From a virus, in the IMG/VR virus record IMGVR_UViG_3300044302_001795, positions 1 through 22,487 of that record: DNA of 22,487 bases; one strand, written 5' to 3'. The notes beneath the pieces were generated by a model. That model did not search any database and was not told where the DNA came from. It saw only the letters and a list, made by a program, of their open reading frames with translations. Below, in pieces: positions 1,597 through 19,298 of this stretch. The stretch's first letter is position 1; every line of letters starts with the position of its first letter. The position numbers and the translations under genes were made by a program.

Positions 1597-2103
1597 TTAT
1601 GCGTCAGCGAATGGAGTAACTAGTGTTCCTGAACCAAGTATGATTCCTTCAACAGCATACTTAGCAGAAGCCATCGCAGTTACTTTTACGATACTGCCAG
1701 CTAGTCCGCCTTTAGTTGTTCCGTTCATGGTAATAACGTCGTTACTTGCACCAGAAATAAAAGTTTTACCAGTAGCGTCAGTTACACCTGTATAAAGACC
1801 GCCAACAAACTTATCCGTTCCATCAGTTAAGATGTCCATGTCTGTTGCAGCAGTTTCTACGATAAATATAAAAGTAGCACCTAAGTTATTAGTTTGGTTA
1901 GGGTCTGTGTCTTCACCAGGAGCAGTTGCAACGATAGAGGGTAAAGTAAATTTACCATCTGCGTCATTACATGTTAATACTTTGCCTGAATGAGAAGCCA
2001 CTGTAATTGATGTGTCAGCAGTAAGGCTAACTACATTAGCATTACCTGCTGAAATAAATCCAGCCAGTGACTTTACTGGACCTGAAAAGGTTGATTGCGC
2101 CAT
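1597..2103 (-). CDS. Putative capsid decoration or structural protein
   Basis: A 168-residue protein almost entirely of small and beta-forming residues (Ala, Gly, Thr, Ser, Val) with very few Lys or Arg. It contains TDGTDKFVGGLYTGVTDATGK and an Asn/Asp-rich EDTDPNQTNNLGATFIFIVE stretch. A GGAG site six to ten bases upstream supports this start. It is the first gene after the hairpin that follows the major capsid gene. Composition and place suit a head decoration or fibre protein exposed on the virion. No specific family is recognised. Confidence 0.8.
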   Translation of the reverse strand: MAQSTFSGPVKSLAGFISAGNANVVSLTADTSITVASHSGKVLTCNDADGKFTLPSIVATAPGEDTDPNQTNNLGATFIFIVETAATDMDILTDGTDKFVGGLYTGVTDATGKTFISGASNDVITMNGTTKGGLAGSIVKVTAMASAKYAVEGIILGSGTLVTPFADA

Positions 2104-2261
2104 AATTTTTTCTCCGAAAAAATAAGTCCTACCGTCTTGGCTTGTCTGCTAGGTCAGTCTGTAGGACAAGTTTACCCCTAGATAAAGTTTGATGCGGGTT
2201 GAGTGAGAAACCCCCGCATCACAGGTTCCATATTACTTGCGTTTTAATGCTCTATTTGGCA
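2104..2261. other. Intergenic region after the capsid gene, with two hairpins
   Basis: There is no gene here. A 9-bp perfect inverted repeat (TGATGCGGG at 2190-2198, CCCGCATCA at 2213-2221) has a 14-nt loop. A second pair, GTCCTAC at 2126-2132 and GTAGGAC at 2161-2167, could form a larger stem further along the message. No run of T follows the first stem on the minus strand, so simple intrinsic termination is doubtful. Partial termination or mRNA stabilisation at the 3' end of the capsid message is possible. Confidence 0.6.
2190..2221 (-). terminator. Stem-loop downstream of major capsid gene
   Basis: Perfect 9-bp GC-rich stem, extendable by two A-T pairs, 41 bases after the capsid stop codon. 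The U-tract is poor (AAACTTTAT on the message), so it may be a leaky terminator or a stabilising 3' hairpin that sets capsid-to-minor-protein ratios. Confidence 0.45.
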
Positions 2262-3170
2262 TTAAGCACCAGGAGATCCGAAGATACCACGCCAGTCAGA
2301 CCAGCCGAAGCTGTATCTTTCTCTTGCTTTATATCTTACGTTTCCTGTTTCGAAATCACCTTCCATGTTAGTGGAAACTGGAGTTCGAACAAAGTGCTTG
2401 AGACCATTAGGTATATCTGTCTTAACAAACCAAGCGTCGGTGTCTGTCAAATAATGATTCACAGCGTAGCCATCTGGGACCATGCCCATATTTCTAATTG
2501 CATTGATGTCATTATCTGAAGTTGCGACTCTTCCTGGTGTGTTTAACAACCGATCTGCAATGAACTGTAATGCAGGTGGCACAATTAATCGTTGTGCTTG
2601 TGCATTAACTTTCAGACCTCTCTCATCTTTAAAGCCAGCAATATCAATTAGTGCTTGCTCCATAGATGTTTCATTAAGGTCTGCAGCTGTACTTAGTTCA
2701 TTCTTAAGATCACCAGCAGTCAAAGAGGTATGATCGGTAGCGAATAGTTCTTTACCGTCTCCTCCTGGATAACTGCTGCTAAATCCATTATTCAACACGT
2801 TTGCAGCTTTAATCTGCTTCGTTTGTTGCATAGAACGAGCTAGTGCTCTTGTGTATCTTGCAGATAGGGTATCATAGAGATTATCTTCCATTGCTTCTTC
2901 AGTCAAGGAGAAGGCTAACGCTACAGTGTCGTGAGTATAACGAGCTGTCCAAGTTTCTTGAGCAGTGTCATACTTGACCGCAGCACCTTCGCCTTTAACT
3001 GCAGCTTCTCCGAATCCAGAGAGCATCACTTCTTCCTCATAAGCACGATCAGAATTTTCAGTATCGAAAATCATAGTATGCTCATCAGCGTAGCTTGAGT
3101 ACTCTAGCCCGAATAAAGCATTAAGTCCTGGAACAAGTTCTTTAACGAGTTGTGCTCGATTAATCGCCAT
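2262..3170 (-). CDS. Major capsid protein (HK97-fold, Mu gpT-like)
   Basis: A 302-residue protein. It opens with MAINRAQLVKELVPGLNALFG, then the ETWTARYTHDTVALAFSLTEEAMEDNLYD region and a long helix with KAANVLNNGFS. It continues with FATDHTSLTAGDLKN, a TSMEQALIDIAGFKDERGLKV segment, LIVPPALQFIADRLL, and the C-terminal WFVKTDIPNGLKHFVRTP and YSFGWSDWRGIFGSPGA. This order is characteristic of Mu-type (gpT-like) HK97-fold capsid proteins. No separate protease gene is visible in the window, and an N-terminal scaffold domain is absent, agreeing with the separate scaffold-like gene upstream. An AGGAG site fixes the start. Confidence 0.9.
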   Translation of the reverse strand: MAINRAQLVKELVPGLNALFGLEYSSYADEHTMIFDTENSDRAYEEEVMLSGFGEAAVKGEGAAVKYDTAQETWTARYTHDTVALAFSLTEEAMEDNLYDTLSARYTRALARSMQQTKQIKAANVLNNGFSSSYPGGDGKELFATDHTSLTAGDLKNELSTAADLNETSMEQALIDIAGFKDERGLKVNAQAQRLIVPPALQFIADRLLNTPGRVATSDNDINAIRNMGMVPDGYAVNHYLTDTDAWFVKTDIPNGLKHFVRTPVSTNMEGDFETGNVRYKARERYSFGWSDWRGIFGSPGA

Positions 3171-3180
3171 TTCTTAACTC

Positions 3181-3717
3181 CTATTCAAACGGATTAGCTG
3201 GGAATCGGAAGAATGCTCTAGCATTTGCTCCAATTGAGTTGCTTGGTGTATCCACAAAGCCAACACAAAGAGCAACACCAGAAGATGTAGTAGCAGTTAC
3301 CCCTTCCGCAGAACGACCAGTAGATGTACTACCAGCAGTCGTTGAAAGAGTATACTTATTGCCTATAAAGCTCACAGCTGGTGTACCAGCAGTAAATTGA
3401 GCTTCGTAAACGATGTCTGGATCGTTATAAACATAAGCCTGAGCATCTGCACTTCCTAATGTAGCAGTGTCAGCAGTCCAATGTTTTGAAAACGTCGGAG
3501 TGCCGTCAGTTGCCTCATAATAAACGCCAGCAAAAACGCCAACAGGAGCACCAGTAGCCGTGCCTTGAATGATGTAACCGCTTGATAGATTGACAACATC
3601 GCCACTAAAGATAGAAGCATTTGTCGCACTAGCGATTCTCATTTGAGCAGGTCTAATGATTCCACCAGTCAAGTGATATGCTGGTGTAAACCCATTGGGA
3701 TCATTAGTATTTGCCAT
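3181..3717 (-). CDS. Putative head decoration protein
   Basis: A 178-residue protein starting MANTNDPNGFTPAYHLTGG, followed by an RIASATNASIFSGDVVNLSSG strand pair, a GVFAGVYYEATDGTPTFSKHW segment and YVYNDPDIVYEAQF. I recall this pattern in proteins encoded beside the capsid gene in many marine phages, where they are annotated as structural or decoration proteins. It lies 10 bases before the capsid gene and is probably co-transcribed at high level. The ribosome binding site is poor (GGGTAAATAA). The structural call is strong by context; the exact role is inferred. Confidence 0.8.
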   Translation of the reverse strand: MANTNDPNGFTPAYHLTGGIIRPAQMRIASATNASIFSGDVVNLSSGYIIQGTATGAPVGVFAGVYYEATDGTPTFSKHWTADTATLGSADAQAYVYNDPDIVYEAQFTAGTPAVSFIGNKYTLSTTAGSTSTGRSAEGVTATTSSGVALCVGFVDTPSNSIGANARAFFRFPANPFE

Positions 3718-4223: not shown

Positions 4224-5054
4224 TTAGACATACTTTGCGTACTCTTCTAATGGCACACCGAGCTTTTTAGCAATTGCTTGCTGACTTGATGTGAGTTTTA
4301 CTTTTTTGGATTTCCTAGCGGTTGGGTTAGCCCCAGCACTAGTTCGTCCAACTGCTTGCACAGGAGGAGCTTTAGACTCCTCTTGTTCAAATTTATGTGG
4401 AAACGCTTCTTTAATACGATCATCTAATTGGTCGTAATAATCAGGAGCGGTAGGGTTTATGCCTTGCTCTTGCATTTCCTTATCGATTTCAAAGGCAGCA
4501 GAAGTCATGACTCTGTCTCTTCCAAACCAAGAGTTTTCCTCTTTTTGCGCCCAAGCAGTAGCTCTTGGATCGACTGGTGGAGTTGTGTTAGCAGCTCCAT
4601 TTTTTGGTTCGGCTGACTTTTGTTTTCTGCGTCGATTAATTGTTTCTTGTTCGACAGCCAATTTAGCAATCTCCTGTTGCGTAGCAACTTGAGTATCGAT
4701 ATCACCATTTTCTAGTGCTGCTCGATACTTATCGTTCGCTTGTTGGAGTTGCGTTTCAACCCGACCACCGTACTCAGTAATTAGAGCTTCGTCCTTATCT
4801 TGGACCTTTTCTTCAAACTCTTTTACTTTTTCTTGTAAGTTTTGGGCAACTCGGAGAGCTTCGTCTCTTTGTCTTTCGGCTTCTCGTTGGTTATAGGTGA
4901 GCTTGTCGATTCTTTTTTGAACCTTCTCGCTATATTTTTCGATTTCCTCTTCGTGTTCTTCAGAAGCTTGTTGAGTTTCAACCTCTACTTCTTCTGTTTC
5001 TTCTTCAGTAGGAACTTCTATTTCTTTTTCTAGATTTTCAGTTTCTTCTGGCAT
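4224..5054 (-). CDS. Scaffold-like assembly protein
   Basis: About 276 residues when started at the second ATG, which has GGAGGAG directly upstream; the ATG 12 bases earlier has no site. The first 50 residues are extremely acidic (EVPTEEETEEVEVE), followed by a long coiled coil with heptads to about residue 120. A low-complexity linker leads to a basic C-terminus (ARKSKKVKLTSSQQAIAKKL ending LEEYAKYV). Acidic N-terminus, coiled coil and small basic capsid-binding tail are the usual plan of phage scaffolding proteins. Its place just upstream of the capsid genes supports this. No protease active site is visible. Confidence 0.75.
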   Translation of the reverse strand: MPEETENLEKEIEVPTEEETEEVEVETQQASEEHEEEIEKYSEKVQKRIDKLTYNQREAERQRDEALRVAQNLQEKVKEFEEKVQDKDEALITEYGGRVETQLQQANDKYRAALENGDIDTQVATQQEIAKLAVEQETINRRRKQKSAEPKNGAANTTPPVDPRATAWAQKEENSWFGRDRVMTSAAFEIDKEMQEQGINPTAPDYYDQLDDRIKEAFPHKFEQEESKAPPVQAVGRTSAGANPTARKSKKVKLTSSQQAIAKKLGVPLEEYAKYV

Positions 5055-8313: not shown

Positions 8314-9831
8314 TTAATAGTAAACCATTTGTCTGTGTCTATATCCGTCAAATGAGTCTTCATAATCAGAAGCTAACTGAACAAATCCACCTTGGCGGAA
8401 ACGCAGAACTGCTTGTGTCATTGAGTCGACTAAGTCATCGTGATCACCGTTAGGGAAAGCTGCACACTCTTCTACAACTTCTGTCGCCCAGTGCATGTCG
8501 GGCTTCCAGACCATTCCTGACTCAAACAATGGTGTACAAGCGTTTACTCGAGCAACCTTATCTGCGCCTTTGCTTGGAGTAAAGTTTTGAACAGGAATAC
8601 CGATTCTCCTTAATTCTTGTGTTAAAGGCGTTCCGCTTCCTTTCGCCTCAATAATTACTGTGTCTGGATCCCAATGCTCATAAAGTTCTAGTGCTTTGCG
8701 CTTTAATTCAGGAAACTCAAGCCTCTGTTTCACAGAGTCCAGTAGTATGAGATGAGCAACGTCTCCTTGGTAAAAATCTTCGCCTATGCGTCCGTGCGGG
8801 TAAAATACGCCCCACGTTGTGATTGCGGAGTAGTCAGCAGTTTCTGACTTTAAAAATGCCGTGTCGTAGCTTTGTATAATATATTCGCACTCGGGTGGTT
8901 TTTCGGTTACCCATTCTTTCCACCATTCACGTTTAATTAGCGCACCTTCTTCAGAAGACGGCGATTGCATGTATTGAGCAAACCATTTCGGTCCATTACC
9001 CAATGCTGCTTTGATTGCTTCCAGTTCTTCAACTTTCCAGTACTCTGGCCAAACTGCGTCTCCACTCGGCAGTATAGCTGGTAATTCAATGACTTCCCAC
9101 TGATCGTTTTGAGAACTACGAGACATATCCTTGATTAATCTCCCTGTTAGGTCTTTAACTGACCAACGAGTCATAACGATAACTATCGCTCCTCCAGGCT
9201 GAAGTCTTTGCCTTGGTCCAGAGGTATACCACTCATAAGCGTCATCCAGTGCTGCTTTTGACATTGCGTCTTGCTCTGAGTGCGGATCGTCAATAATAAA
9301 GAGGTCTGCACCCCGTCCAGCGATCGCACCGCCTGTACCTACCGCATAATACTCCCCTCGTATCGTCGGTTGGTTTTCTGCCATGGTTTCCCACTTTCCT
9401 GCTGCTTTTGAGTCTGGGTTTAGTATCGTATCGGGAAAAATACGTTTATATATGTCGGATTGTATTAAATCCCTTACTTTACGACCAAAACGCACCGCAA
9501 GGTCGGATGTATGCGTTGCTTGTATGATTTTAAGTGCAGGGTTGCGCCCAATTAGGTACGCTGGGAGTAAAAAACTCGCAAACTCACTTTTTGTATGTCT
9601 TGGAGGCATATTGATGATTAATCGCTTTAAAGTGCCGTCGGCTATGCGGTTAAAAGCGTCTGCGACTATTTTATGATGGTGACCTTCTATAAAGTTTGGC
9701 CACTGGCTTTTGACAAAGGATAAAAACTCTTTTTGCGACTGTTCTACTTCACTAAGCTCTTTGAACCGTTCTGTAAGCTCGTAATACTCTTTTAATGTAT
9801 CTTCGGGAAGGTTATTGAGGTCTTTATTCAT
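8314..9831 (-). CDS. terL: Terminase large subunit
   Basis: About 505 residues from an ATG that overlaps the small-subunit stop; a TTG five codons earlier is an alternative. The ATPase part has a Walker A-like MPPRHTKSEFAS (about residue 80) and a Walker B region ADLFIIDDPHSE. The nuclease part shows the expected acidic triad: YDTAFLKSETADYSA, TVIIEAKGSGTPL and HDDLVDSMTQAVLRF. It pumps phage DNA through the portal and cuts the concatemer. Gene order small subunit, large subunit, portal is canonical. All motifs are intact. Confidence 0.93.
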   Translation of the reverse strand: MNKDLNNLPEDTLKEYYELTERFKELSEVEQSQKEFLSFVKSQWPNFIEGHHHKIVADAFNRIADGTLKRLIINMPPRHTKSEFASFLLPAYLIGRNPALKIIQATHTSDLAVRFGRKVRDLIQSDIYKRIFPDTILNPDSKAAGKWETMAENQPTIRGEYYAVGTGGAIAGRGADLFIIDDPHSEQDAMSKAALDDAYEWYTSGPRQRLQPGGAIVIVMTRWSVKDLTGRLIKDMSRSSQNDQWEVIELPAILPSGDAVWPEYWKVEELEAIKAALGNGPKWFAQYMQSPSSEEGALIKREWWKEWVTEKPPECEYIIQSYDTAFLKSETADYSAITTWGVFYPHGRIGEDFYQGDVAHLILLDSVKQRLEFPELKRKALELYEHWDPDTVIIEAKGSGTPLTQELRRIGIPVQNFTPSKGADKVARVNACTPLFESGMVWKPDMHWATEVVEECAAFPNGDHDDLVDSMTQAVLRFRQGGFVQLASDYEDSFDGYRHRQMVYY

Positions 9832-10297
9832 CTGTTTGGACGTCAATTATCTCGCCTTTGGGCAATACTCCGCCCGATTCGTAGTAAAGTTCGTTCATTC
9901 TGACTAAAATCTCCTCTTTAGTCATCATTTCGACTTTATTGATGGTTAATTCGCTTTTTCTTACATAAAGTCCTGCTGCTTTGCCTCTTGCGACTTCTGC
10001 TGCGACTGCTGCCGACCACATTCCTGCTCCAACTGCTCCATCCCGTATATCTTTGAGATCGTTGAGGTGTGTTCCTAGATTTACGCTCACTAAATCGGCT
10101 GCACGGTCTTGCAACGCTTGGATTCTGTTTTTTATCTTAGGATTTTGATCACTGGCTAGAGCTGTACCCGCTTTTTGCGCATTTTTAGGCGAATATCCTG
10201 CTTCGATTGCTGCTTGTGTCTTGGATAAGCCTTTTGCCACGCTTTGAGCGAATTTTTCCTGTCTAGGAGTCAGTTTATCCTTGTTTTTCTTTGTCAT
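9824..10297 (-). CDS. terS: Terminase small subunit
   Basis: 157 residues. The N-terminus KLTPRQEKFAQSVAKGLSKTQAAIEAGYSPKNAQKAG is the typical helix-turn-helix DNA-recognition domain of small terminases, followed by ALQDRAADLVSVNLGTHLNDLKDIRD for oligomerisation. A C-terminal NELYYESGGVLPKGE tail would contact the large subunit. It selects viral DNA and hands it to TerL, whose frame it overlaps by a few bases. A four-base overlap with the upstream membrane protein suggests coupled translation. Confidence 0.88.
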   Translation of the reverse strand: MTKKNKDKLTPRQEKFAQSVAKGLSKTQAAIEAGYSPKNAQKAGTALASDQNPKIKNRIQALQDRAADLVSVNLGTHLNDLKDIRDGAVGAGMWSAAVAAEVARGKAAGLYVRKSELTINKVEMMTKEEILVRMNELYYESGGVLPKGEIIDVQTDE

Positions 10298-10735: not shown

Positions 10736-10897
10736 TTACTTCTTTTTTCTATAAGTCTTAGTAGTGTACGCTTCGTTTATGTCTTTTGTCTTAGGATCGT
10801 CTGCTACGAACCTTCCTTTCTTTGTGCGGTTGCGAACAGTTTTTTCCTCATAACCGAGAAAAGTCTTTTTGAACCAATTCGTTAATCCGATTGCCAT
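10736..10897 (-). CDS. Small basic protein, first gene of the late operon
   Basis: A 53-residue protein, MAIGLTNWFKKTFLGYEEKT ... YTTKTYRKKK, behind a strong AGGAG site. It is rich in Lys and Arg, with a WFKKTFLGYEEKTVRN stretch and a basic tail. Its stop overlaps the GTG start of the membrane-protein gene (TAATGTG). It is the first gene transcribed in the packaging and structural operon. I recall related small proteins upstream of terminase in marine phages; no function is known to me. Confidence 0.75.
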   Translation of the reverse strand: MAIGLTNWFKKTFLGYEEKTVRNRTKKGRFVADDPKTKDINEAYTTKTYRKKK

Positions 10898-11121
10898 AAT
10901 TTTCTCCTAAAAATTTTGCAAGAAATATTTTTGCTTATTTTGCACAAGAAGTAAAGGAAATTTGCAAAAATTCGAAATCCATGGTGAATGCCTCTCCAAA
11001 TCTTACCCTTTAGCTATAGCTACAGGGTTATGCTATAAAGGGGGGCGGGGCTACCCCTACGGCTTAATTATAGCCCTTTTAAGCCCTTTACTTTTATACC
11101 CCTTTACTACCCTACGCCCCT
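10898..11121. other. Gene-free region upstream of the late operon
   Basis: There is no gene here. Near the late-operon start are repeated TTTTGC(A) words (10914-10970) forming an imperfect inverted repeat. At 11031 the composition switches sharply into the dinucleotide-restricted island. A GC-rich GGGGGGCGGGG block at 11038-11050 is followed by CCCTTTTAAGCCC-like words up to the terminator. Confidence 0.6.
10927..10955 (-). promoter_or_regulatory. Weak candidate promoter for the late operon
   Basis: A TTTACT box (10950-10955) identical to the -35 of the early promoters lies about 55 bases upstream of the first late gene, but at the 17-bp distance there is only a poor A/T-rich -10. Late transcription may need a phage activator, or may read through from upstream if the terminator at 11122-11159 is suppressed. 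Confidence 0.3.
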
Positions 11122-11159
11122 ATAAAAAATAAGCCCCCTAGTTATTAGCTAGGGGGCTT
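11122..11159 (-). terminator. Intrinsic terminator of the restricted gene
   Basis: A perfect 11-bp stem (AAGCCCCCTAG at 11131-11141, CTAGGGGGCTT at 11149-11159) with a 7-nt loop is followed on the minus strand by TATTTTTTATA. It starts 19 bases after the stop codon of the gene at 11178. It is itself built without CA, TG, GA or TC. Confidence 0.88.
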
Positions 11160-11177
11160 ACCGCTAGGGTTTAAAGG

Positions 11178-11510
11178 TTAGCTTATAGTTATTTTACCGC
11201 CCTTTAAAAAATACCCTAACCCCGTTTTACTTAAAACGGTACTAGCGCTACTACCTAAACTAATATTAGCTTTAGCTAACGCTTTAGTACTTAAAGCGTT
11301 ATTAACTTTAGCGCTAGGGTTAGCTTTAGCCCGTACTATATTAGCTACGGTAGCCCCGTTATAAACGCTATTTAATATATAAGCGTTTTTAGGGTTTACC
11401 GTACCGCCGTTAACTACGGTTATAGTAGCGGTTAAGGGGTAGCTAGTACCGTTTATAGTTACGCTATTAGCGGTAAGGTTAGCGTTAGTACCTTTAGTTT
11501 TATTTACCAT
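11178..11510 (-). CDS. Small basic protein built from 13 amino-acid types
   Basis: 110 residues. No Asp, Glu, His, Gln, Cys or Trp occurs, and Met only at the start: exactly the residues whose codons contain CA, GA or TG. Ser is always AGY and Leu never CTG or CTC. With 10 Lys, one Arg and no acids the net charge is about +11. The segments YPLTATI (residues 24-30), NGATVANIV and LGYFLKGGKITIS (C-terminus) align with FPVTATI, DGLTIGDFI and LRYFVKHGFVTIG of the protein at 12661-12951, so this looks like a true, folded paralogue. The promoter (11563-11591), an AAAGG ribosome binding site and the terminator all match. The function is unknown; DNA or RNA binding is possible from charge. Confidence 0.85.
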   Translation of the reverse strand: MVNKTKGTNANLTANSVTINGTSYPLTATITVVNGGTVNPKNAYILNSVYNGATVANIVRAKANPSAKVNNALSTKALAKANISLGSSASTVLSKTGLGYFLKGGKITIS

Positions 11511-11562
11511 TTTTATTTACCTTTATTTACGCTATTAAACTTAATTATTTAATAGTACCTAT

Positions 11563-11591
11563 AATAGTACGCTTTTTAACGGGTAAGTAAA
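11563..11591 (-). promoter_or_regulatory. Promoter of the restricted gene
   Basis: -35 TTTACT (11586-11591), 17-bp spacer, -10 ACTATT (11563-11568), then ATAGGTA, in the same register as the TATGCT-ATAAGGG core of the other cassettes. The TG in TATGCT, forbidden in this island, is absent. A more canonical TATTAT lies two bases further on. Confidence 0.6.
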
Positions 11592-11677
11592 GGGGTTTAA
11601 ATATAATATTTAGTTATAAGGTAAAACTATATAACTACTAGTTATAAGTAAAGGGGTAGCCACATACACACGAATGC

Positions 11678-11709
11678 GAGCATGAACAAGAACATGAGCA
11701 TGAACAAGA
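11678..11709. repeat. 14-nt direct repeat, 18-nt period
   Basis: GAGCATGAACAAGA occurs at 11678-11691 and again at 11696-11709. It borders the restricted island and uses almost only the steps that the island lacks. Confidence 0.8.
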
Positions 11710-11760
11710 GTATGAGTTCGGGTTTGGTTTTGTTTATCTTTATCTTTATCGAGGTTTAGA

Positions 11761-12660: not shown

Positions 12661-12951
12661 TTACCCTATAGTTACGAAGCCGTGCTTGACGAAGTAACGT
12701 AGAGCCGATGTATCTCGTTGAAATCCACCGAGCATTTTATCACTATTTTTAATAGCGATGAAATCCCCAATGGTGAGACCATCAAAAGCATCAACCCAAT
12801 CTTGGTTGTGCCCAGCTCTTGGTTGTTTCCCTGTAGCTTTAATAGTAGCGGTAACAGGAAAACCACCCATACCCTTAACTTCTACTTTAGCAGAAGCTTG
12901 AGCCTTGACCTTCTTAACTGCGGTTTTTTCAGCTTTACTTAATTGTGGCAT
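12661..12951 (-). CDS. Small basic protein, normal-composition paralogue
   Basis: 96 residues from the ATG at 12951, which lies 7 bases after AAGGTG; a GTG three codons earlier overlaps that site. The N-terminus is a Lys/Ala helix (LSKAEKTAVKKVKAQASAKV). The second half, GGFPVTATIKATGKQ, DGLTIGDFIAIKN and LRYFVKHGFVTIG, aligns with the protein at 11178-11510 in the same order. Unlike that protein it uses Asp, Glu, His, Gln, Trp and Met normally. The TIGDF..KHGFVTIG pattern could be a small alpha/beta or winged-helix fold, but I cannot name it. It has its own promoter and terminator. Confidence 0.8.
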   Translation of the reverse strand: MPQLSKAEKTAVKKVKAQASAKVEVKGMGGFPVTATIKATGKQPRAGHNQDWVDAFDGLTIGDFIAIKNSDKMLGGFQRDTSALRYFVKHGFVTIG

Positions 12952-13001
12952 GTAGTTCACCTTTTTAAGTTAATTGCTAACCGTTATTAGTTAGTAAAGA
13001 T

Positions 13002-18869: not shown

Positions 18870-19298
18870 TTATGTAGGTTCTTTGCGCCACCGTTCGTTT
18901 TCTGCTATTCTTTTTCTTAAGCCACTGGAAGAATAAGCATGATCCCTACTGATGTACTCTATGTTGATGGGCAGTTCTTTTCCTGTGAATGGTTTATTTT
19001 TGTAGTCGTCGCCTAAAAACCTGAAGTCTAGGTCTAGCATTTGCAACAAGTTCCATAAATCAGATTCGGTATCGTACGGGATAATTTCGTCAACATACTT
19101 CACTGAGTCGAGCCTCAGCCAACGTTCGTAGGTCGATTCACATGGCTTGTTTTTTGAGTCGGGGCGGTCTATTGTTGGGTCTGTGTGTAGTCCGATAACT
19201 AAATGATCACACTTTTGTTTTGCTTTTTTGAAGAAATATAGGTGCCCAGGATGCAGTAGGTCGAATGCTCCACAAGTAAATCCTCTAGTTTTCTTCAT
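18870..19298 (-). CDS. Cytidylyltransferase-like nucleotidyltransferase
   Basis: 142 residues. TCGAFDLLHPGHLYFFKKAK gives the HxGH nucleotide-binding motif (HPGH) of the cytidylyltransferase family, followed by VIGLHTDPTIDR. A YERWLRLDSVKYVDEIIPYD segment corresponds to the R(A/W)xxL..(V/I)D region. YSSSGLRKRI near the end matches the second motif, (I/S)SSxxL(R/K)xRI, seen in glycerol-3-phosphate cytidylyltransferase. The family makes CDP-alcohols or NDP-sugars for cell-wall, teichoic-acid or polysaccharide synthesis. In a phage it may modify the host surface. The substrate cannot be told from sequence. Overlaps the gene at 19285. Confidence 0.85.
   Translation of the reverse strand: MKKTRGFTCGAFDLLHPGHLYFFKKAKQKCDHLVIGLHTDPTIDRPDSKNKPCESTYERWLRLDSVKYVDEIIPYDTESDLWNLLQMLDLDFRFLGDDYKNKPFTGKELPINIEYISRDHAYSSSGLRKRIAENERWRKEPT

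Follow-up and report, generated by a model that had tools for sequence, protein, structure and literature searches.

In the thymidine-hypermodified phages M6, ViI and phiW-14, resistance to restriction is seen chiefly where a site contains TG or TC (Flodman et al. 2019, PMC6449724), and TS, that is, T followed by G or C, was inferred as their modified dinucleotide and attributed to a 5-hmdU DNA kinase (PMC6449724). HTVC023P-type pelagiphages were previously known to carry a thymidylate synthase together with the aG/PT-PPlase1 system (PMC9599517), and the passages searched in that paper mention neither a TS-free island nor the gene family reported below. Effects on transcription are documented as well: bulky 5-substituents typically abolish transcription by bacterial RNA polymerase (RNAP) by blocking promoter contacts (PMC11550810), phosphorylation of hmU cuts transcription to 37% (PMC6457204), and glucosyl-hmU (base J) functions in kinetoplastid termination (PMC4150806).

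Here we analysed a 22,487-nt stretch of viral DNA (IMG/VR record IMGVR_UViG_3300044302_001795, positions 1 to 22,487; hereafter the window), which contains a short island nearly devoid of TS, and compared it with related metagenomic contigs and named phages.

Modification genes and affiliation of the phage

Terminase sequence places the window phage, a marine virus infecting bacteria, in the HTVC023P-type pelagiphage group. Its large subunit gene, terL (8314..9846, minus strand; phrog_38, E 2e-104), which served as the anchor for island position, is 56-63% identical to those of HTVC023P/HTVC027P-type named members; PolA, primase and helicase are present, and the modification gene cluster is the same. 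The terminase small subunit, also used as a locus anchor, was assigned to 9824..10297 (minus strand) from its position and sequence character.

The contigs holding the island are G001 (g1, 51.7 kb) and G002 (g2, 38.5 kb). The island contigs carry a thymidylate-synthase homologue (PF00303, phrog_5131; 43% identical to that of M6), which by homology would act as a dUMP hydroxymethylase, a PF18723 protein (5-hmdU DNA kinase helical domain / aG/PT-PPlase1; E 2.7e-48 in g1, 40% identical to that of M6) and a TET-associated glycosyltransferase (TAGT; PF20691 and phrog_842). The cluster also includes an FkbM methyltransferase, to which g1 adds a cupin, and is adjoined by a YfbR-like nucleotidase and PolA. 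The M6 gene order of PF18723, thymidylate synthase, HD hydrolase and PolA is matched, the first two proteins being 40-43% identical to those of M6, and here as in M6, ViI and phiW-14 TS is the dinucleotide that matters. The locus differs from those phages in that TAGT is present, that BLAST at 1e-6 detected no homologue of the M6 P-loop kinase (gp054) among the contigs, although a divergent one is possible, and that one unit is purged of TS, whereas the M6 genome holds no island. By analogy with M6, ViI and phiW-14, and from the genes just listed, the modified base can be deduced provisionally: TpS would be the step modified in this phage, and TAGT would act on the modified TpS. The hypothesis of TS modification was drawn from the island rule alongside the first thymidylate-synthase search; PF18723 and TAGT were found afterwards.

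Three further genes were observed in these genomes. A cytidylyltransferase-like protein (phrog_7878; window 18870-19298, minus strand) could supply an activated sugar or alcohol to the glycosyltransferase. An SNF2-type helicase (G001:C1:11437-12894, minus strand), also present in g2 and G015, runs against the direction of most genes, and a protein that looks structural and contains a TP repeat of great length (TPTPTP...) is encoded at 2023-3708 of g1 and in L038.

The TS-free island and its conservation

Between 11032 and 11661, a single CA, TG, GA or TC step occurs where the remaining sequence of the window predicts 148 (log10 P = -46.2), which confirms the 630-nt gap in these steps described in the initial annotation. 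By direct count, the island is flanked by the forbidden steps TG (11031-11032) and CA (11661-11662); the sole internal one, CA at 11508-11509, is the reverse complement of the ATG start codon (11508..11510, minus strand) of an enclosed ORF (11178..11510, minus strand). Boundaries between A/T and G/C within the island are of the allowed kinds (A before S, S before T) in 169 cases and forbidden in 1, compared with a forbidden share of 48% outside it. Each of the 85 A/T runs has A as its last letter and 84 have T as their first, as had also been stated. The GC content is 37% versus 41%, so the rule is not mere AT-richness. A log-odds scan of the window gave the island a score of 96 and no other stretch above background, the maximum in 3 Mb of sequence simulated under a first-order Markov model being 10.3. 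Since the missing set is closed under reverse complement, the rule reduces to the absence of TS on either strand, and it is best written as T never preceding G or C on both strands. It concerns double-stranded DNA, covers coding and non-coding bases alike and begins and ends abruptly, so that the earlier reading of it was right in these respects.

Three further metagenome assemblies (L001-L003) contain an identical island, which is thus not an assembly artefact. The rule is maintained over large divergence: it is kept over the matching stretch in L004 (84% amino acid identity) and in L005 and L006 (56-58%), with the ATG as the only break, and is obeyed by the divergent copy in L027 and L031 (57% amino acid identity), in which the few breaks are confined to the outer edge. 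The 57 coding substitutions between g1 and L004 include all six substitution classes. The initial annotation had named as grounds for doubt an assembly artefact or a homologous island of ordinary dinucleotides in close relatives; the relatives were found either to keep the rule or, in the case of contig G019 described below, to lack both the island and TAGT. As read from these comparisons, the island is under strong continuing constraint and is neither an artefact nor a relic.

The unit is bordered on its upstream side by a TS-dense, low-complexity flank (11661..11720), whose density percentile is 0.05 in g1 and 0.0001-0.05 in several other genomes. Measured by boundary fraction, such a flank is significant directly beside the island in G006 only; measured by density, it is high in many genomes, and these flanks are accordingly given as description. 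On the downstream side, the first gene (10736..10897, minus strand) encodes 53 aa beginning MAIGLTNWFKK... and is 94% identical in G019. The sequence GGGGGGCGGGG at 11040..11050, as read directly, is a form of the motif CCCCCCACCCCCCTTATA without its CA. This motif or a variant of it separates the island site from the first late gene in the window, G021, G026, G020 and g2, and the island-less G019 has it as CCCCCCTCCCCCTTTATGG at about 42753-42769; it is a possible packaging or regulatory site.

The island gene family and its signals

The ORF inside the island encodes 110 aa in which D, E, H, Q, C and W are absent and M occurs solely as the start. Each island holds one small gene of a single family, of which further copies lie in the same genome in ordinary or less depleted DNA; the window's own paralogue (12661..12960, minus strand) has ordinary TS content, with 65 forbidden steps (f = 0.46). 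Per 100 codons, strict island genes have 0-5 avoidable TS steps and paralogues 26-65, and the steps left over in strict island genes are mostly demanded by the amino acid or the start codon. The window's lineage has gone beyond this in losing the residues named above. In G024 and G027 even the start codon has given way: after the upstream stop, the reading frame offers no ATG, GTG or TTG and begins AGG GGT ATT ATT ATT AAT and AAA GGG GTT ATT ATT ATT AAT, respectively, so that a start at ATT is plausible from the sequence of both genes. ATG is likewise absent from the G012 island gene. Forced leftovers together with start replacement form the pattern expected of selection on DNA limited by protein. 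The ratio of leftover TS to SA steps, taken as a test of template-strand reading, was 127:63, which differs from that of long ORFs (p 3e-4) and not from that of paralogues (p 0.34); the strand asymmetry of the leftover steps is no greater than in paralogues.

The island protein family gave nothing significant in PHROGs and Pfam searches, and no relevant match emerged when named phages were searched for the island or for its gene family at nucleotide and protein level. DNA-pattern matches in L020-L022 were dismissed as chance, lying outside islands. Structure models of two family proteins (pLDDT 73 and 86) have, in the canonical member, a core of one strand, three helices and one strand, and a small mixed domain is predicted; the fold search of PDB, BFVD and VIA reached a best Z of 4.0, and no Foldseek match fell below E 0.001, winged-helix structures included. 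Proteins of about 180-200 aa near the small terminase gene carry the island-family domain at their C-terminus, preceded by an unrelated N-terminal part (G006 4286-4888, G009 9279-9839, G012 30713-31273, and others).

The TS-free stretch extends from promoter-like boxes to a terminator-like hairpin. In the window, pattern matching places a -35-like box TTTACT, a TS-free form of TTGACA, at 11586..11591 (minus strand) and, 19 nt from it and about 50 nt before the ATG, a -10-like box TATTAT at 11561..11566 (minus strand). These boxes are weak consensus matches and are absent as such in L004 and g2; a consensus scanner reported no sigma-70 promoter in the window, the island included. Most island ORFs are preceded by a pattern like TTTACT-(15-19)-TATAAT, mostly 40-80 nt before the start. 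A TS-free hairpin resembling an intrinsic terminator lies 3' of the window ORF (11128..11162, minus strand); its stem differs in relatives with the rule kept, and that of L027 and L031 is wholly different in sequence and still TS-free. A hairpin and T-tract follow the island genes in general, after which the absence of TS usually lasts another 0-35 nt; in the window's lineage it extends about 100 nt beyond the terminator.

Recurrence with TAGT and possible explanations

Islands recur in the PF18723 contigs G006, G012, G021, G024, G026, G027 and G028, with weaker ones in G010 and G020, and all of them lie 1.1-2.9 kb upstream of terL. Among records holding terL and its upstream region, one duplicate having been dropped, an island upstream of terL was found in 11 of 17 TAGT-positive contigs versus none of 11 TAGT-negative records (eight without PF18723, and G019, G030 and M6, which have PF18723 and lack TAGT). 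Fisher's test for this association gave 0.0009, or 0.004 when strict islands only were counted, values that are uncorrected for relatedness and optimistic: the contigs are fragments and share ancestry, part of the controls are incomplete, and thresholds were fixed once the data had been seen. Six TAGT-positive contigs of the group with terL hold no island, nor do the named TAGT-positive phages MW202897 and LuckyBarnes (GC 60-62%), and no member of the island gene family was found in the TAGT-negative records. A set of 80 terL-anchored loci (706 kb) yielded a clear island in L163 only, whose terL is 73% identical to that of the window. By sequence comparison, the cleanest control for the link is G019: the genes neighbouring the site are 94-97% identical to those of g1, terL 87% and PF18723 78%, TAGT is absent, and the equivalent site is ordinary DNA (f = 0.50-0.53) without an island. 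Outside islands, the TS share of coding boundaries is 0.411-0.495 in all 24 TAGT-positive contigs and 0.502-0.537 in all TAGT-negative ones; there seems to be a weak genome-wide TS pressure that tracks the glycosyltransferase.

Weak depletion was also seen elsewhere. The segment G015 9507-9736 (the same as L080 4468-4697), far from terL and beside the SNF2-helicase gene, is weakly TS-depleted (score 14), and many related loci have a TS-poor 200-nt segment upstream of PF18723 at about the distance seen in G015.

Taken as a whole, we consider it probable, at odds of roughly two in three, that the island is a small transcription unit purged of the phage's own TpS hypermodification target so that RNAP can read the modified DNA there. 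According to this reading, T would probably be replaced by 5-hydroxymethyl-dU by way of the thymidylate-synthase homologue, and hmdU at TpS would be converted by the PF18723 protein and TAGT to a bulkier, probably glycosylated base. The TS-free island would then stay unmodified within a modified genome, and RNA polymerase would bind, read and terminate normally on it, so that transcription would be the process protected. The island product would perhaps be a DNA-binding regulator at the early/late gene boundary. Base J (PMC4150806) offers a likeness, being a glycosylated hydroxymethyluracil that affects transcription, as the model supposes here, and a TET-associated glycosyltransferase is present in the phage; base J differs in being eukaryotic and made by the TET/JBP oxidation route, and the phage base is a candidate proposed from genes.

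The position of the islands, 1.1-2.9 kb upstream of terL, makes the main rival a packaging (cos/pac) site or an origin of replication, which the terminase or an initiator would have to encounter as unmodified DNA, the gene within being incidental. The conserved C-rich motif beside the islands also speaks for it. It is nevertheless unlikely: the limits of the island are those of a unit running from promoter-like boxes to terminator, reading frame and conserved residues of the ORF are retained, leftover steps sit at conserved amino acids, copies of the gene in ordinary DNA lie nearby, and 400-650 bp is large for such a site. With both strands considered, a lack of TS is also a lack of SA, which would equally suit an SA-directed adenine methylase or a host or rival-phage nuclease cutting SA/TS; only one unit per genome is purged, however, the association is with TAGT and the thymidine-modification genes, and no DNA adenine methylase was seen in the subset of g1 proteins scanned, all of which makes avoidance of such an enzyme quite improbable. 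General restriction avoidance is not supported, on the same ground of one purged unit per genome.

The candidate causes in the initial annotation had included both a very short recognition site, which these results favour, and dinucleotide rules imposed by mutation or copying, which they do not. A local process of the latter kind, such as deamination or template-restricted synthesis, would account for the sharp ends and the near-total absence of steps. Such an origin is very unlikely because of the forced-leftover pattern, and we give it hardly any weight: all six substitution classes occur among island copies, violations stand mostly where an amino acid or start codon demands them, two lineages replace the ATG, terminator stems change in compensation, and the islands of other lineages hold different members of the gene family. 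What the earlier reading lacked was whose site is avoided; thymidine hypermodification, which the phage group appears to apply to its own DNA, is directed at TpG/TpC.

A point against the reading as a purged transcription unit is that other genes also need transcription, yet one unit only is exempt. Also weighing against it are the M6-type P-loop kinase that BLAST did not find, the TAGT-positive records with no island, the leftover-step asymmetry that does not exceed that of paralogues, the weakness of the promoter boxes and, in the window's lineage, the TS-free tail past the terminator. The most attractive idea is that transcription of modified DNA, or the opening of the adjoining late genes, may depend on the island product. 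In a bolder and doubtful form of this idea, glycosylated thymine would block RNAP on most of the incoming genome, the TS-free gene would encode an enabling factor or a late-gene opener, and the TS-dense flanks would be modification-dependent transcription blocks. If that bootstrapping were true, DNA modification in the phage would be gene regulation, written as the total loss of a dinucleotide.

Restriction-site avoidance in phages and unmethylated CpG islands are cases in which sequence is shaped by what a modifying or reading enzyme recognises. The present case would differ from both in that the avoided site is the phage's own modification target, two bases long, and that a whole transcription unit is purged, down to its amino acids and, for two lineages, its start codon. 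A literature search, covering few subscription papers, found nothing relevant on an unmodified region within hypermodified phage DNA. If the purged-unit reading is true, part of a genome evolves to be invisible to its own DNA-modifying enzymes at the cost of seven amino acids and the ATG of two lineages, and a newly named small protein family is tied to glycosyltransferase-type modification. It would also let the modification specificity (TpS) of uncultured phages be read from sequence alone, point to a transcription cost of hypermodification, and make it possible to test if base modification in phages serves gene regulation in addition to protection from restriction.
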